Source: Megasphaera stantonii (GTDB lineage: Bacteria; Bacillota; Negativicutes; Veillonellales; Megasphaeraceae). From it: 64,000 nucleotides of DNA. Below are positions 52,471 through 59,643 of the stretch, piece after piece. A program made the position numbers and the translations under genes. The stretch covers positions 992,001 through 1,056,000 of the forward strand of contig NZ_CP029462.1 of the NCBI RefSeq assembly GCF_003367905.1, in the 5' to 3' direction. The notes below the pieces were generated by a model. It worked only from the letters and a program-made list of their open reading frames with translations, was not told the DNA's origin and searched no databases. Numbering within the stretch: position 1 is the first letter of the stretch; the number at the start of each line of letters is the position of its first letter.

Positions 52471-53283
52471 TTATTCAGCCGGCTGTATCTCCGCATGGAA
52501 CAGCTCCTTGCCCAGGGTCTGCACCCAAAATCCGAGGAGCTGGCTATACGCCTCCTGTCCCGACGACGCAGCTTTTAAAACCTGGGCCATAAATTGCTGG
52601 GCCCAGGAGTAGCTGAAGCGGTCGAACCGCCCCATTTCGTTCATAGCGGGAATCCGCTCCAATAAGGGCAGGAAAATATCCGACGTCACTTCTTTCGCCT
52701 TCGGCGTAATATCGTATACGTATCCCATGCCCTTACGGTCCCGTTCCAGGAACACGAGAGACACGTCCTCGCTGCCGCCGCCTTCGGTCAAATCGATGTG
52801 ATAGGCCTCCAGAGGCAGCTTTTCCCGATCTCCTTCCTTGACGAGCTGGTACGCGCCGTATTTGATGATTTCATACAGCCTGTCGTCATATCCGCTCTCT
52901 ATTTCGATGATTTTTTCCCGCCATTCACCCCAGGTCAGCGCCGCCCGGCAGCGGTACTCTGCGAACGAATCGCCGCCTAAAAAGGAGCGCACGTCTTCCG
53001 ACGTAACGGGCGTCTTGGGGTCCGGTATATGCCATACCATAAACTTCTTATGCTTGTCGACGTACAAACAGGGGCTTTCTACATGTATCTGGCTATGGCA
53101 ATGGGGGCATTGATAAAAAAATAATCCTTCGTCGTGAAGCACGCGCCGGCGCATCTCAGCGTTTTCCCCGCCGTCGATGCAGTCCCATGTGGAAAATGCG
53201 CCGACGCCTCCGCAGGCCGGGCACGTGAGCTGCAGCTCGGTGCGGTGCGTCCTGTCTTTCTGCTGATTGTCTTCAACTGCCAT
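52471..53283 (-). CDS. CpXC-domain protein
   Basis: A 270-residue cytoplasmic protein. The N-terminal 130 residues are a CpXC domain with two zinc-finger-like pairs, LTCPACGGVGAF and YQCPHCHSQIHVE, followed by PCLYVDKHKKFMVWHIP. The rest is alpha-helical with RLYEIIKYGAYQLVKEGDREKLP and a conserved-looking ALTWGEWREKIIEIE. CpXC proteins are common in anaerobes but have no known activity; the cysteine pairs suggest metal binding. It lies 39 bases after a macro-domain gene, apparently as one unit. Confidence 0.85.
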   Translation of the reverse strand: MAVEDNQQKDRTHRTELQLTCPACGGVGAFSTWDCIDGGENAEMRRRVLHDEGLFFYQCPHCHSQIHVESPCLYVDKHKKFMVWHIPDPKTPVTSEDVRSFLGGDSFAEYRCRAALTWGEWREKIIEIESGYDDRLYEIIKYGAYQLVKEGDREKLPLEAYHIDLTEGGGSEDVSLVFLERDRKGMGYVYDITPKAKEVTSDIFLPLLERIPAMNEMGRFDRFSYSWAQQFMAQVLKAASSGQEAYSQLLGFWVQTLGKELFHAEIQPAE

Positions 53284-53322
53284 GATATATCCTCTCTTAT
53301 CCTATAGTGTTTCGCGTGCCGC

Positions 53323-54111
53323 TCAATAATACGACTGCAGCAGCGATTCCAAGCCGGAACTGCTCTTGATTTCCGGCTGCTCTTGGTATGACTGCATTAC
53401 CGTATCGGCGGCCTTTTCAATATCGACGATGCCGCGGGGCTGGCTCATATCCAGGAAGGGGCGCAGCACCCGCTTCATGGCCCGCACCTGCTCGGCGAAG
53501 GCGATGGGGTCGGGCTTATCCGTTTCCACCTGCAGCATGACCAGAGAAATCATCGCCTCTTCTATCATGTCGGCCAATTCGTCCTTATGAGCATCGTTGA
53601 GGTGACGCAGCCAAAAGAGGACGGCCGCTCGCGTATACACAGCCTGCATCTCCGCATCGGCGCAGACCAAATCGATGCGCTCCATTTTCCCGCCTTCTTC
53701 CATGAGCAGCGGCACGACGGCCGCGGCGGCCCGCTGTCGGGGATAGCGCTTATCTTCCGTGCTGACCGAGGTAAAAGCCAGATAACGCACTCCCTTGTCT
53801 TCAGCCAGGCTCAGGCTCTTTCGATAGCAGGACAGCAGCTCCTCTTCTTCGCCGCGCTTGCCGCCGACCCAGATGGGCCCTACGGCATGAATCACATATT
53901 TCGCAGGCAGCTTGTAGCCAAAGGTTATCTTGGCGTCGCCTGTACGGCAGCCTTTCAGAGACCGGCACGCCGCCGTCAGCGAAATGCCGCCTGCCTTATG
54001 GACGGCCCTGTCGACGGCGCCGCTCAGGCCCAGCAGGCTGGAGCTGGCCGAATTGACGATGGCGTCGGCCGGCCATTTCGTTATATCTCCCACTAACACG
54101 CGAAATTGCAT
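53323..54111 (-). CDS. Macro-domain protein with helical C-terminal extension
   Basis: A 262-residue protein. Residues 1-160 form a macro domain (VLVGDITKWPADAIVNSA, VDRAVHKAGG, GDAKITFGYKLPAKYVIHAVGPIW, YLAFTSVST). Macro domains bind ADP-ribose or remove it from proteins. In hydrolase-type members the loop is NAAN followed by GGGG; here it is NSAS and GLSG, so the Asn needed for catalysis in YmdB/MacroD proteins is Ser while the Asp (AVDRA) remains. About 100 residues of C-terminal helices follow (SLVMLQVETDKPDP, FLDMSQPRGIVDIEKAAD), unlike simple macro proteins. It may bind rather than cleave ADP-ribose. It precedes the CpXC gene. Confidence 0.87.
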   Translation of the reverse strand: MQFRVLVGDITKWPADAIVNSASSSLLGLSGAVDRAVHKAGGISLTAACRSLKGCRTGDAKITFGYKLPAKYVIHAVGPIWVGGKRGEEEELLSCYRKSLSLAEDKGVRYLAFTSVSTEDKRYPRQRAAAAVVPLLMEEGGKMERIDLVCADAEMQAVYTRAAVLFWLRHLNDAHKDELADMIEEAMISLVMLQVETDKPDPIAFAEQVRAMKRVLRPFLDMSQPRGIVDIEKAADTVMQSYQEQPEIKSSSGLESLLQSYY

Positions 54112-54193: not shown

Positions 54194-55108
54194 CTATTTC
54201 ACAAAAATACTGATGGCCTTCTTGAGCTTTTCTACAGATTCTAAATCGTTTCCCCGCACGGCGTCGGCCAGGCAGTGGTCGATGTGATCCTTCAAGATGA
54301 CCTTGCTGACGCTGACGACGGCCGAGTCGACGGCGGCCAGCTGGACCAGCACGTCGCTGCAGTCGCGCTCGTCTTCGACCATCCGCTTGATCGCCTCCAA
54401 ATGGCCTCCGACGCGGGCCAGGCGGTTGACGACGGCCTTCTTCTGCGTATGGCTGCGGTGCGGGCTGCCTGCCGGAGCAGCAGCGCCGCCGCGGCCGTAG
54501 GGATCGTAAGAAAATTCGTCGGCCTTCGTCACGCTGACAAAATACAGGTCGTCCCAGTCGACGGTAGCCGAAAGGGTAAATCCTCTGCCGACAAGATCCG
54601 CCGCCAGCATGTCCGCAGGCGGCAGCAGCCGGCGGTCTGCCCGATCGTCGTGAATGCGGTTTACCTGCCGCCGTCCCATATCGTGCATGACGATCAGGGA
54701 GCCGCCGTCCTTTAAGGCCCGCCGTATCTTTTTGACAAAGTCCCGGCTGCGGCTGCTGATATGGGGATAGAAATTCAGGCAGACGACGGCGTCGTAGGCC
54801 TGCTCCGGCAGGTCGTACTTCAGCACGTCGCCCTCGATCAGCGAGAGGCCCGGCAAATCGGAAAATTTTTCCCGCGCCTTATCCAGCATCTGCCGGGAGT
54901 AGTCGAGGCCCGTCACCAAGCCTCCTTCGCCGACGGCCCGACTTATATAGGGCAGCAGCACGCCGGTGCCGCAGCCTGCGTCCAGCACCGACGCGCCGGC
55001 CCGTATCTTTGCCAGCTTCAGCAGAAACTGCAGCTTTGCCGGATTTTCCTTGCGGTCCCGGTCCCACGTATCGGCATAATTTTCAAAATATATATGTTCT
55101 TTATCCAT
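54194..55108 (-). CDS. Methyltransferase fused to a CsoR/RcnR-type metal sensor
   Basis: A 304-residue fusion. Residues 1-195 are a class I SAM-dependent methyltransferase (SVLDAGCGTGVLLPYIS, GLDYSRQMLDKAREKF, VVCLNFYPHISS). After a Gly/Ala/Pro linker (about 200-215), residues 215-304 are a complete CsoR/FrmR-family repressor domain: KAVVNRLARVGGHLEAIKRM, DERDCSDVLVQLAAVDSAV and KDHIDHCLADAV. The metal-site residues Cys, His and Cys are in their expected places. In other bacteria this domain is a free DNA-binding four-helix protein sensing copper, nickel or formaldehyde. An MFS gene is divergent, 166 bases away. ATG 55108 is used; in-frame ATGs at 55144 and 55162 are possible. Confidence 0.85.
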   Translation of the reverse strand: MDKEHIYFENYADTWDRDRKENPAKLQFLLKLAKIRAGASVLDAGCGTGVLLPYISRAVGEGGLVTGLDYSRQMLDKAREKFSDLPGLSLIEGDVLKYDLPEQAYDAVVCLNFYPHISSRSRDFVKKIRRALKDGGSLIVMHDMGRRQVNRIHDDRADRRLLPPADMLAADLVGRGFTLSATVDWDDLYFVSVTKADEFSYDPYGRGGAAAPAGSPHRSHTQKKAVVNRLARVGGHLEAIKRMVEDERDCSDVLVQLAAVDSAVVSVSKVILKDHIDHCLADAVRGNDLESVEKLKKAISIFVK

Positions 55109-55229
55109 CGCACCTGGTCGTTTCCTTTCATCCTTTTCTATCATTGTAACGGCTGGCCGCAAATTTTACAAACATGAAGTCCGCTCTATGGCGCCCTGAA
55201 ACAAACGACTGCTCCCGTCGGGGCTTTTT

Positions 55230-55238
55230 TGCTATAAT
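55230..55238 (+). promoter_or_regulatory. Extended -10 promoter of the MFS gene
   Basis: TG-C-TATAAT, an extended -10, lies 36 bases before the MFS start; the -35 at the usual distance is weak. It is in the gap shared with the divergent methyltransferase-CsoR gene, so it is a candidate target of that protein. Confidence 0.6.
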
Positions 55239-55274: not shown

Positions 55275-56612
55275 ATGACTATGGAAAAACATATCTTTTA
55301 CTCCGTCTGCATCATCAGCTTTGCCGGCTCGTTTTTATCGACAGCCGTTAACATCGCTATTCCCGTCATGTCCCATGAATTCGGCCTGACGCCGGATAAG
55401 CTGAGCTGGGTCGTCACGGCCTTCCTGATCCCCACAGCGGCCTGCCTGCTGCCGATGGGAAAGGTATCCGATATCTATGGCCGCAGAAAAACATATGCCG
55501 CGGCGCTCTTGGCCTTCGCCTTTACGACGGCTGCCGCTGCTCTGGCAGCGACGCTGCCGGTTCTCGTCGCAATACGGGCCTTGCAGGGCATCGCCTTGTC
55601 AGCCGTATACGTATCCTATATGCCCCTGCTGCTGGCAACTACAGACGAGGATTGCCAGGGCCGCATTCTCGGAATCTGCGTCGGCCTGACCTACCTGGGC
55701 CTGTCCCTGGGACCGGTCGCAGGCGGCCTGCTGACGGAATACGCAGGCTGGCGCTCTATATTTCTCCTGTCAGCCGCCATGGCTTCCGCAGCCTATCTGT
55801 TCATCCGCCCGGTGCGTCAGGAATGGTATGCCAGCGGCGCTCCCTTCGTCAACGCCGTGAGCTCGGCCTTATCCATTGCCGGCATCGTGCTCTTTCTCTG
55901 GGGAATATCGTCCTATGCCGAAACGAACCTCCCCTTATGGGCCGGCTTGTTCCTGCTGCTGGCCTTTATCCTTCACGAAAGCCGTTCTTATCATCCCCTG
56001 CTGCCGCTGTATATTTTCCGCAGCGTCTCCTTTTCCATGTCCAATCTGGCAGCCTTCATTCAATACAGCGCGACGTACGCCATGTCCTTTCTGCTGTCTC
56101 TCTACCTTCAGGTGCTGACGGGCTTATCGCCGGCCGTCTCGGGCCTGATACTCCTCGTCCAGCCCATCATCATGGCCCTGCTGTCGCCGAAAGCCGGCGC
56201 CTTGTCCGACGCCTACGGCCCCATGCCGATCGCGACGGCCGGCCTGGCCCTGACGACGCTGGGACTGGCCTGCTTCGCTATCTGGCCCGACCCGTCCGTC
56301 GCCTCAGTCGCCGCCTTTCTCGTCCTCATCGGGACGGGGTCCGCTTTATTCGGCGCGCCGAACAACAGCGCCATCATGAGCGCCGTCAAGCCGGCCTATC
56401 ATGGCGTCGCGTCCAGCATGCTGGCCTTGGCCAGAAATCTCGGCCAGGCGTCCAGCATGGCCGTCGTCACGCTGATTCTGTCGCAGCATACGGCGGCGAC
56501 AACCTTATACGCCGACGCCGTGCGCGCCGCCCTACGTCAGTCCTACACGCTATTTGCCGTCCTCTGCCTGTGTTCCGTCTTCGCTTCGCTAGCCCGCGGA
56601 AAAAAGAAATAG
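55275..56612 (+). CDS. MFS transporter, drug-exporter type
   Basis: A 445-residue transporter. The spans can be counted to about 14, matching the DHA2 (drug:H+ antiporter) layout. Motif A-like GKVSDIYGRRKTY lies in the loop after span 2, and an antiporter-like LGLSLGPVAGGLLTEYAGWRSIF (motif C) is in span 5. The substrate is unknown. GAGGTG stands seven bases before the ATG. It is divergent from the methyltransferase-CsoR fusion gene, which suggests local regulation. The C-terminus ends in a lysine-rich tail. Confidence 0.88.
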   Translation: MTMEKHIFYSVCIISFAGSFLSTAVNIAIPVMSHEFGLTPDKLSWVVTAFLIPTAACLLPMGKVSDIYGRRKTYAAALLAFAFTTAAAALAATLPVLVAIRALQGIALSAVYVSYMPLLLATTDEDCQGRILGICVGLTYLGLSLGPVAGGLLTEYAGWRSIFLLSAAMASAAYLFIRPVRQEWYASGAPFVNAVSSALSIAGIVLFLWGISSYAETNLPLWAGLFLLLAFILHESRSYHPLLPLYIFRSVSFSMSNLAAFIQYSATYAMSFLLSLYLQVLTGLSPAVSGLILLVQPIIMALLSPKAGALSDAYGPMPIATAGLALTTLGLACFAIWPDPSVASVAAFLVLIGTGSALFGAPNNSAIMSAVKPAYHGVASSMLALARNLGQASSMAVVTLILSQHTAATTLYADAVRAALRQSYTLFAVLCLCSVFASLARGKKK

Positions 56613-57173: not shown

Positions 57174-58574
57174 TTGAAAACATATCAACCGATAACACCT
57201 GAAATCATCGATAAACTCAAGGCCATTACGGGCCCGTCATACGTCAAGACCGACCGGGACATTCTCCTGCAGTATCAGACGGATTACGAAACGAATCCGG
57301 CTATGTTCCGCGTCCCCGAAGCGGCGGTCCTTCCGGCGAATGCCGAAGAAATCTCGCAGATCGTAAAGCTGGCCAACGAATACGATTTCCCGATTACCGT
57401 CCGCGGCGGCGGCACCAGCCTGGCTGCCGGAGCCATTCCGGTCTGCGGAGGCCTCGTCTTGTCTATGGAACGGCTTAATAAAATCATCGAGCTGAACGAA
57501 GAAGGCATGTACATGACCGTCGAAGCCGGCGTCCGCACGATCGACATGCAGAATGAAGCCAAAAAAGTCGGCCTCCTCTACGCCGGCGACCCGTCGAGCG
57601 CCGAAAGCTGCCTTATCGGCGGCAACCTGGCCACCAACGCCGGCGGCCTCCGCGCCGTCCGCTACGGCGTCACCCGCGACCAGGTCTACTCCCTGGAAAT
57701 CGTCACGCCGACAGGGGACATCGTCGAATGCGGCCGCATCCTGAAAAAATGCTCTACCGGCTACGACCTGGAACAGCTCATCATCGGCAGCGAAGGCACC
57801 CTGGGCATCATCACCAAGGTCACGGTCAAGCTCATTCCCTTGCCGCCGTACCGCATCGACGTCCTGGCCATCTACACCGACCCGAAAAAGGCCCTGTACA
57901 TGGTGCCGAAGCTGCTCAAAGCCGGCGTCGACCCGACGAGCGTCGAATACATGGACAACTCCTACGTCCGCGATACGGCCGACTACTGCCAGTATTCCGA
58001 CATGCCTCATTACGAAGACGGCATCTACGTCATCATCACCGTCGAAACGTTCCGCGAAGACGAATTAGACGCCAAGATGGACACGGTCTGCACGATTTGC
58101 GAAGAATCGGGGGCCGTAGAAGTGCTGGAAGCCGACGACCGCATCTGGAACATGCGCCGCAACGTCCAGACGTCGTGCGAAATGATCAGCAAGGTTTTCC
58201 TCACCGACGACGTCGTCGTTCCCGTCCATAAAATCGCTTCGACCATCGAAAAGATCATGGAAATCGGCGAAAACTATCCCTTCCAGGTTAAGATCAACGC
58301 CCACATCGGCGACGGCAACCTGCACATCGTCCTCTGCAAGATGGACATGAGCGACGGAGAATGGAATAAAAACGTCGAAGAATTCCATCAGCAGGTATAC
58401 GCCTACGCCTACAGCGTCGGCGGCAGATTGGCCGGCGAGCACGGCATCGGCGCGAAAAAGCTGAAATATATGGAACAATTTACGCCCCAGGGCGAGCTGA
58501 AGGTCATGAAGACCATCAAGCGGGCCATGGACCCCAACCTTATCCTCAATCCGGGCAAGGTAATCGACGCGTAA
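57174..58574 (+). CDS. FAD-dependent D-lactate dehydrogenase (GlcD family)
   Basis: A 466-residue FAD-linked oxidase. The PCMH-type FAD domain has ITVRGGGTSLAAGAIP, GDPSSAESCLIGGNLATNAGG and GSEGTLGIITKVTVKL; the C-terminal domain has NAHIGDGNLH and GRLAGEHGIGAKKLKY, with His residues for a metal site. It resembles the Etf-linked D-lactate dehydrogenase of Megasphaera and relatives, which oxidises D-lactate to pyruvate, though glycolate or 2-hydroxyglutarate are possible. The start is a TTG with GGGGG about nine bases ahead. No etfAB genes are adjacent. An L-lactate dehydrogenase gene faces it. Confidence 0.88.
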   Translation: MKTYQPITPEIIDKLKAITGPSYVKTDRDILLQYQTDYETNPAMFRVPEAAVLPANAEEISQIVKLANEYDFPITVRGGGTSLAAGAIPVCGGLVLSMERLNKIIELNEEGMYMTVEAGVRTIDMQNEAKKVGLLYAGDPSSAESCLIGGNLATNAGGLRAVRYGVTRDQVYSLEIVTPTGDIVECGRILKKCSTGYDLEQLIIGSEGTLGIITKVTVKLIPLPPYRIDVLAIYTDPKKALYMVPKLLKAGVDPTSVEYMDNSYVRDTADYCQYSDMPHYEDGIYVIITVETFREDELDAKMDTVCTICEESGAVEVLEADDRIWNMRRNVQTSCEMISKVFLTDDVVVPVHKIASTIEKIMEIGENYPFQVKINAHIGDGNLHIVLCKMDMSDGEWNKNVEEFHQQVYAYAYSVGGRLAGEHGIGAKKLKYMEQFTPQGELKVMKTIKRAMDPNLILNPGKVIDA

Positions 58575-58610
58575 GGCTCGCAAACGCTGCGCCTCACGCG
58601 AAATGGCAAT

Positions 58611-58656
58611 ATAAAACGGGATGATTCCGGTACCTGCCGGTGTCATCCCGTTTTTT
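58611..58656. terminator. Bidirectional terminator
   Basis: AAAACGGGATGA and TCATCCCGTTTT form a stem with a nested CCGG/CCGG hairpin and T6 tail, between the convergent lactate dehydrogenase genes. Confidence 0.9.
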
Positions 58657-58689
58657 ATATGCTGCGCATCATCTGTGCGCAGGAGGTTC

Positions 58690-59643
58690 TTATTTCAGCA
58701 ACGCCGCAGCTTTGGCGATGTTGTTGCGGATCGTCTGGCAGCAGCTCTTGAATTCCTGCAGTTCGTCGTCCGGCAAATTGTATTCCATAACCTGTTCGAC
58801 GCCATGGATGCCGATGACGGCAGGCACGCCGCAGAAAATACCCGTTTCGCCGTATTCGCCGTCCAAGGGGACGCTGGCAGCCATGATTTTCTTTTCATCG
58901 TGGAGAATCGCCTTGACGATGGACGCAGCCGTCGAGCAGATGCCGTATTCCGTGCAGTGCTTGCCCTTGTAGGTTACCCAGCCGCCGCCGATAGCCCGTT
59001 TTTTCATGTCTTCCCGGTCAAAGGCAAAGCGGGGATCGTCGCCATAGTCGGCCAGCGGTTTGCCGCGGAAGTTGACGATAGACCAGGGAACCATCTGGGC
59101 GTTGCCGTGTTCGCCCATCATGTAGGCAGTGAAGGAGTGATGTTCCAAACCCGTCTGCTGTACGATGGCGCTGATGAGGCGGGATGAATCCAATCCCGTG
59201 CCGGTGCCCAGCACGCGGCCCTTCGGCAAGCCGCTCTTCTTGGCAATCAAGTCGGTAATGACGTCGCAGGGATTCGTAATGTTGACGAAAATGCCGTCGA
59301 AGCCGCCGGCCATGACCTTGGGAACGTAGTCGGCTACCTGGGCCACGGTATATTCCATTTCGTCGTCGCGGTTGCCCGTAGCGCACAAGTTGATGTCGCC
59401 GACAGCGTTGACGATAACGTCGCAGTCCTTCAAATCAGCGTAATCCGCTATCGTATACGTGACGCGGTGCGGCATGAACATGACGGCGTCCATTAAATCC
59501 TGCCGTTCGCTTTCAGCCTTCTGGGCGTTGCAGTCGCAGATTTTTACTTCATCGGCAATGCCCATCACGCCCAAAACAAAGGCGACATGAGCGCCTACGT
59601 GGCCTAAGCCGACGACGCCGACAACTCGTTTCTTTAACTCCAT
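58690..59643 (-). CDS. L-lactate / L-2-hydroxyacid dehydrogenase
   Basis: A 317-residue NAD-dependent dehydrogenase of the LDH/MDH family. The dinucleotide loop is VVGLGHVGAHVA, strand 2 ends in an Asp (KICDCN) that favours NAD; VNITNPCDVIT and GTGTGLDSSRL follow, and the catalytic His is in MMGEHGNAQMVPWS. An LDH or L-2-hydroxyisocaproate dehydrogenase is the best guess; the substrate loop GDINLCATGN departs from standard LDHs. With the FAD enzyme convergent to it, the organism can process both lactate isomers. Start and ribosome site (AGGGAT) are usual. Confidence 0.85.
   Translation of the reverse strand: MELKKRVVGVVGLGHVGAHVAFVLGVMGIADEVKICDCNAQKAESERQDLMDAVMFMPHRVTYTIADYADLKDCDVIVNAVGDINLCATGNRDDEMEYTVAQVADYVPKVMAGGFDGIFVNITNPCDVITDLIAKKSGLPKGRVLGTGTGLDSSRLISAIVQQTGLEHHSFTAYMMGEHGNAQMVPWSIVNFRGKPLADYGDDPRFAFDREDMKKRAIGGGWVTYKGKHCTEYGICSTAASIVKAILHDEKKIMAASVPLDGEYGETGIFCGVPAVIGIHGVEQVMEYNLPDDELQEFKSCCQTIRNNIAKAAALLK

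Follow-up and report, generated by a model that had tools for sequence, protein, structure and literature searches.

A methyltransferase and a CsoR-type domain are encoded in one open reading frame

The gene studied here lies in a window of 64,000 nucleotides of Megasphaera stantonii DNA, by which we mean the whole stretch analyzed. The features to which we refer, numbered from the first nucleotide of the window, are as follows.

52471–53283, minus strand: CpXC-domain gene, on the same strand as the fusion; its family is called in 11/11 fusion loci
53323–54111, minus strand: macro-domain gene downstream of the fusion, on the same strand; its family is called in 8/11 fusion loci
54194–55108, minus strand: fusion gene, a single uninterrupted open frame of 304 aa plus stop
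54197–54451, minus strand: CsoR/RcnR-family domain with three helices (residues 220–245, 250–286, and 289–303), from PF02583 and the structure model
54272–54274, minus strand: codon of C279 (Z ligand), from translation and alignment of 11 fusions
54284–54286, minus strand: codon of H275 (Y ligand), from translation and alignment of 11 fusions
54359–54361, minus strand: codon of C250 (X ligand); position names follow the available text of PMC4235346
54452–54523, minus strand: linker, residues 196–219, predicted to be disordered, from the alignment of relatives and the structure model
54524–55108, minus strand: SAM methyltransferase domain, residues 1–195, with the motif DAGCGTG at 43–49 and the family histidines H116, H142, and H153, from Pfam, 73 aligned rows, and the structure model
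55211–55224, plus strand: terminator-like hairpin followed by six T, directly before the extended −10, from a hairpin scan
55230–55238, plus strand: extended −10 element TGCTATAAT, directed at the MFS gene, from the sequence
55275–56612, plus strand: MFS gene divergent from the fusion; in a family search its best NCBIfam model is DHA2-type EmrB, below cut-off

The original prediction described a complete SAM methyltransferase joined to a CsoR/FrmR-type domain, and Pfam indeed recovers both domains above their curated cut-offs within one 304-aa frame: Methyltransf_25 at residues 41–136 (E 1.5e-20) and Trns_repr_metal (PF02583) at residues 222–299 (E 2.7e-26; 92.2 bits vs. a cut-off of 22.8). 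The start is a conserved ATG at 55108, a longer form from a TTG at 55162 being possible. In an AlphaFold2 model of the monomer, computed from 18 sequences (mean pLDDT 81.7, pTM 0.64), a class I methyltransferase is predicted to be followed by an unordered stretch at 200–220 (pLDDT <50) and by three helices within 220–303. A Foldseek search with this model returned SAM methyltransferases and the like among the 50 matches listed, the best being 3dh0 (E 4e-13), and both the fold and the SAM motifs place the N-terminal half among class I SAM methyltransferases. The C-terminal half has the three-helix domain common to InrS, RcnR, and CsoR (DUF156, PF02583), from which it differs in being joined to a methyltransferase, and we assume from the behavior of this family that it forms a tetramer.

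The Cys-His-Cys site that had been noticed in the CsoR domain consists of C250, H275, and C279, which are retained in 11/11 fusions; as in InrS, according to the available text of PMC4235346, there are His residues on the N-terminal side of the site. As for the linker, its description as Gly/Ala-rich holds for the window protein but not for most of the other ten fusions, in which it is rich in His and resembles the His-rich N termini of many stand-alone sensors. The Gly/Ala linker is thus a local variant.

The fusion is conserved in the family

A search for the same domain pair in other genomes had been proposed as a check, and it found the full-length fusion in 11/17 genomes of the family, the other ten proteins showing 53–60% identity and no internal stop. 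Because of this conservation we could rule out a sequencing or frameshift artefact: between the two domains, where a frameshift or stop might have been suspected, the frame is open here and unbroken in the 11 genomes. In a second collection, the fusion members with names were Megasphaera cerevisiae, M. massiliensis, Colibacter massiliensis, and Megasphaera sp. (MJR8396C, NM10, and UBA1696). Outside the genus, no methyltransferase-CsoR fusion was seen among 60 fetched methyltransferase loci, where the longer frames are extended at the N terminus by what looks like non-coding frame from upstream. Among the literature matches listed, we recognized no paper that deals with the fusion or with either the family of its methyltransferase or the clade of its regulator.

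In a genome of the sister genus (G015), the methyltransferase and the sensor are encoded by two genes located away from each other. The methyltransferase gene shares its run with an ECF S-component-like gene and a TonB receptor gene, as well as with genes labeled ExbB-, ExbD-, and TonB-like by reading. A run of this composition spans L287:392–5315 and was read as a diderm importer. In trees, the methyltransferase halves of the 11 fusions group together (100/96) and have the unfused G015 protein as their sister, and the 11 sensor halves form, together with the unfused G015 sensor, one clade (99/99) among stand-alone sensors, within which the G015 sensor sits on a long branch and is not resolved as the outgroup to the fusions. 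A single fusion event is the simplest account.

One way to read such a protein is as two metal-homeostasis proteins that act independently, joined by a flexible linker for co-expression only. The disordered linker of variable length would suit this, as would the separate places of the unfused halves in the sister genus; yet every one of the 11 genomes in which the fusion was found has it intact, at 53–60% identity, and we find this reading distinctly unlikely.

The G015 sensor adjoins lactate racemase (LarA-type) genes. Lactate racemase was rejected as a discriminating link because LarA_C is present in 11/11 family genomes with the fusion and also in 4/6 without it; in the genome of the window, the LarA_C genes lie elsewhere, away from the fusion.

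The divergent MFS gene is not a conserved partner

In most relatives, too, the fusion gene is followed on its own strand by the macro-domain and CpXC genes (window 52471–54111). The MFS gene, in contrast, is beside the fusion in 1/11 loci, that of the window genome, and was not found beside the other 10, so that we rejected it as a conserved partner. The promoter element foreseen for it in the shared gap, an extended −10, is present at 55230–55238, and a promoter scan found no −35/−10 pair on the MFS strand of the gap. A search for a CsoR operator in the gap, also suggested with the original prediction, came back empty: the window has no match to the nik-type site described below with ≤3 mismatches, and the gap has only a CCCCGACGGG inside the hairpin. 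With the MFS gene in 1/11 fusion loci and no CsoR-type operator seen in the gap, the idea that the divergent exporter is the target finds no support.

The same observations bear on whether the fusion might be a detoxification enzyme, for arsenic, mercury, or formaldehyde, with its own sensor driving the MFS exporter. The adjoining MFS gene, divergent and equipped with an extended −10, speaks for such an enzyme. On the other side, this gene was found at none of the remaining 10 fusion loci, the gap showed no operator of the types sought, the neighbors of the enzyme family are importers (see below), and arsenite-methyltransferase models score far under their cut-offs. Identity with ArsM was rejected (PRK11873, 41.7 bits vs. 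263; two ArsM selenoprotein models, 51.7 vs. 510 and 49.6 vs. 575), and we regard the detoxification reading as highly improbable. While a coupling of metal sensing to methylation, as originally proposed, is plausible, the arsenic or mercury detoxification guessed at with it finds no support.

Further along the window, at 57174–59643, lie FAD-linked oxidase-like and lactate/malate dehydrogenase-like genes (labels from reading).

The sensor half keeps its DNA-binding residues and is not a copper CsoR by its second shell

The main DNA-binding residues of the sensor half, RLxR and Gln256, are kept in 11/11 fusions. They are shared with Streptomyces lividans CsoR, in which, according to the available text of PMC3902906, RLxR-type residues and the Gln are needed for DNA binding. 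Two other positions, which may be of consequence, set the fusions apart from their 68 stand-alone relatives. At position 261, 62/68 relatives have Lys or Arg and all 11 fusions Asp or His; at the allosteric B position, 46/68 relatives have Glu or Asp and 11/11 fusions Asn, Lys, or Arg. The unfused G015 sensor has Asn at position 261 and Arg at the B position.

Compared with InrS, RcnR, and CsoR, the fusion lacks a Tyr at the A position and an acidic residue at B or C. In an alignment with InrS, the second-shell Tyr (A) and Glu (B) of copper CsoR proper correspond to D249 and K294, and copA linkage was not found for the fusion, the CsoR that adjoins a CopA-like gene being a different protein (L002) whose gene has a distinct palindrome, TACCC-N5-GGGTA. 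By its sequence, the fusion is a member of PF02583 and, judged from second-shell residues and linkage, not a copper CsoR. With 144 bits, it is the sole member of its sensor clade in its own genome, where two further proteins of the CsoR family score 77 and 74. That genome also has, at L284:10700–10900, the palindromes TATACCCC/GGGGTATA, another CsoR operator type, 5' of a P-type ATPase-like gene.

Nickel-linked genes (NikMQO-type, NikABCDE-type, CODH/ACS, CooT) lie within 6 kb in 15/68 stand-alone sensor loci, one of which (L093) was counted through an EcfT-like match alone, and in 0/40 control windows, which came from 29 of the methyltransferase genomes and not from sensor-locus genomes. A further 19/68 stand-alone sensors adjoin an EamA-like permease (L050, L052, L065–L067, L072, L079, L081, and others), and many of these sensor genes have a TATCCCC-N-GGGGATA palindrome immediately 5'. 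The unfused halves are rarely neighbors, since a methyltransferase-like gene lies within 6 kb in 4/68 sensor loci vs. 2/40 controls at that loose threshold.

The methyltransferase half belongs to an importer-linked family

At E up to 1e-25, a profile of this methyltransferase had matches in 65 of the 398 genomes sampled from the phylum; 67 matches lay outside the genus, of which 60 loci were fetched and 7 dropped. An importer component is encoded within 5 kb in 49/60 of these loci (L170–L229) and within 300 bp in 41/60, compared with 0/40 control windows; the importer set takes in peptide-transporter-like SBP5 and permease families and EcfT-like proteins, and these counts, like those of nickel-linked genes above, are descriptive because the neighbor profiles were built from the neighbors themselves. 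The importers found within 5 kb were ECF S-components (21), ABC-3-like permeases (20), ZnuA-like binding proteins (18), SBP5 (11), and Nik-type permeases (10), and there were FmdE-like proteins at 5 loci, with the labels ABC-3, ZnuA-like, FmdE, CbiM/CbiQ/CbiO, and EamA assigned by reading rather than by family search. The methyltransferase family thus adjoins several types of importer that are unrelated to one another. Only 2/60 of its loci have a member of the sensor clade within 5 kb.

The fusion fits this family, as a row of profile A2 (in which the window protein itself is included) that keeps H116, H142, and H153. Among the 73 aligned methyltransferase rows, which were chosen by the profile, H116 and H142 occur in 73/73 and H153 in 70/73. 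A His near H116 is often present in related enzymes. While the fold and SAM motifs are common to Methyltransf_25/UbiE/BioC-type class I enzymes, the fusion differs from these in the three conserved histidines, in the importer neighborhood of its family, and in scoring below the cut-offs of NCBIfam models, none of which is reached by the methyltransferase half among the 25 listed of 55 matched. Next to the fusion itself, there is no importer gene in the genome of the window, and there is one in the family genome G004. For both halves, sequence and gene neighborhood suggest a link to metal import rather than to detoxification.

In five loci from one genus (L199, L200, L203, L206, and L207), the protein encoded 3' of the methyltransferase in an ABC-3-like metal operon is presumably akin to a YedE-type selenium transporter.

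The two halves meet at nik-type operons

A second methyltransferase family of about 250 aa, which we call MT2, is often encoded with nikBCADE-type operons (L332–L351, L279, L115). Of the 20 phylum loci fetched for it, 13 have SBP5 and 11 have Nik-type permeases within 5 kb. In G004 the fusion is flanked by an MT2 gene on either side, and a nikBCADE-type operon diverges from this trio; in G008 an MT2 gene immediately precedes the fusion. The fusion in the window's own genome stands alone, and an MT2-MT2-nikBCADE run is found at 2162.4–2168.8 kb. All components are unfused in Acetobacterium paludosum (L076), where a 12-kb stretch encodes CbiM/CbiQ/CbiO-like proteins, an ECF S-component, the methyltransferase, MT2, the sensor, a LysR-like protein (labeled by reading), and a nikBCADE-type operon. 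Across 6/11 fusion genomes (G001, G002, G006, G011, G012, and G014, two of them only 82–83% complete), we found neither MT2 nor a close NikB nor a near-exact copy of the site described below.

The metal of the nik-type importers is likely nickel, since the nik-type proteins that were tested are closest to nickel models, although those of Megasphaera are below the cut-offs (in G004, 375 bits vs. 600 for the NikA model and 319 vs. 350 for Opp2B); the NikB-type permease of Acetobacterium passes (379 vs. 350 bits). NikR was not found in any of the 17 family genomes.

A candidate operator precedes the nik genes

A 19-bp G/C-tract palindrome, TAAGCCCCCTATGGGGATA, is present near nik genes in identical form in the window's own genome, G007, and G010, and as variants in G004 and G008. 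The exact sequence occurs once in the own genome, at 2162313–2162331, upstream of the MT2-MT2-nikBCADE run. This site ends 20 bases before a TATAAT, so that it would overlap or touch a −35 element, a repressor's position. It resembles TATCCCC-N-GGGGATA, which precedes 18/71 CsoR-family genes scanned and was not found before those nearest the fusion in identity (e.g., L039–L048).

We scored sites with ≤1 mismatch in 15 fixed positions at 26 of 27 MT2 or nik loci, G155 being left out, in a test that was not blind, as the half-sites had been taken from sites seen in the same data. Such a site is present in 9/16 loci from genomes with the sensor clade vs. 0/10 from genomes without it (Fisher p 0.0037, which overstates independence because the genomes are related), and in neither the 40 control windows nor 14 other loci of the genus. 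Best sites at two mismatches occur in 4/16 loci with the sensor clade, 1/10 without, and 6/40 controls. Of the five fusion genomes with a close nik operon, four have a site with ≤1 mismatch there and the fifth has one with two mismatches. We put weight on near-exact sites only, because a scan of the 17 genomes at three mismatches gave 10 matches vs. 5 with a control pattern.

Within 400 bases before the fusion, no nik-type site was seen in the 11 loci apart from CCCCGACGGG in the hairpin of the window, and an alignment of the 11 regions 5' of the fusion genes revealed no common motif. In G004, the gap between the fusion's run and the nikBCADE-type operon has a site with one mismatch, which precedes MT2, the first gene of that run. 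In Acetobacterium, the stretch examined before nikB has no such site. Operator-like matches in G002 and G006 were discarded, since they overlap the likely ribosome-binding site of a glutamate synthase-like gene. G004 has one two-mismatch match beside a gene that reads like cobT.

The site could be bound by something other than the fusion, either another CsoR-family protein or an unrelated regulator. There are two further CsoR-family proteins in the genome and, in Acetobacterium, a gene that reads as LysR-like at nik. Against this, both paralogues score 77 and 74 bits vs. 144 for the fusion, the copA-linked gene has the different palindrome TACCC-N5-GGGTA, and the near-exact site tracks the sensor clade, which leaves an uninvolved fusion quite improbable.

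A possible regulator-enzyme of metal uptake

We favor, tentatively and at somewhat less than an even chance, a reading of the fusion as a bifunctional protein that would unite a regulator and an enzyme of metal uptake, the metal most likely being nickel. The CsoR-like domain would form a tetramer of the family type and hold the metal at C250'-H275-C279. On a G/C-tract operator, TAAGCCCCC-N-GGGGATA, before the methyltransferase-nikBCADE operon, this sensor half would switch import according to metal status. The methyltransferase half would probably methylate a small metal ligand or a transport intermediate of the same pathway, since its family works beside metal importers. Our data show that the fusion exists, is conserved, and retains its metal ligands and main DNA-binding residues, and they show its genomic links and an operator-like site elsewhere in the same genome. 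We infer from this that the fusion binds the site, which metal it responds to, in which direction it regulates, and what kind of molecule it methylates.

The CsoR part might instead have ceased to regulate genes and serve as a metal-dependent tetramerization and allosteric module that switches the methyltransferase on or off. Such a metal-gated enzyme would fit with the persistence of the fusion in 6 genomes that lack MT2 and a close nik operon, with the lack of a site directly before the fusion gene, with the retained methyltransferase motifs, and with the changes at position 261 and the B position, which are already Asn and Arg in the unfused G015 relative. Retention of RLxR and Gln256 in 11/11 fusions argues against it, as does the nik site, which among the five fusion genomes with a close nik operon has ≤1 mismatch in four and two in the fifth, and we hold the metal-gated enzyme to be somewhat doubtful.

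For a bifunctional regulator-enzyme, the sign of regulation is a difficulty. In the available text of PMC4528141, PMC4235346, and PMC3902906, InrS and CsoR let go of DNA upon metal binding, so that an importer under such control would be switched on by abundant metal, opposite to what simple feedback requires. InrS itself controls the nickel-efflux gene nrsD (PMC4528141, available text), whereas the sensor of the fusion is linked to an importer operon instead.

Trigger enzymes such as BirA or PutA catalyze and repress in the same pathway with one protein, and the likeness of the fusion to them concerns a function that is itself conjectural here. Occupancy of the methyltransferase by SAM or substrate and of the CsoR domain by metal might jointly decide whether the tetramer occupies the nik operator, so that the cell would read nickel plus methylated ligand rather than free nickel. 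This extension is rather unlikely to be right in full; if true, it would remove the difficulty over sign that arises when a CsoR-type repressor controls an importer, and offer an entry to a widespread methyltransferase-assisted pathway of metal import.

The proposed target is, as in the NikABCDE/NikR system, a nik-type operon under a metal regulator, which in these NikR-less family genomes would be of the CsoR type and joined to an enzyme. In the acetogen Acetobacterium wieringae, too, according to the available text of PMC10134865, NikR is not encoded and the systems that import and export nickel still await identification; the Fur suggestion made there concerns the isoprene-reductase operon. 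For the control of nickel uptake in anaerobes without NikR, our data offer a candidate regulator clade and a candidate operator, and a methyltransferase family beside several unrelated importer types would fit an unrecognized methylation step in metal acquisition. The fusion physically links the two ideas, both of which can be tested on one protein.

Sites like TAAGCCCCC-N-GGGGATA are also found at the MT2 loci L332, L333, L334, L335, L337, and L345, in other genomes of the class and one outside it, in which the sensor clade is unfused.
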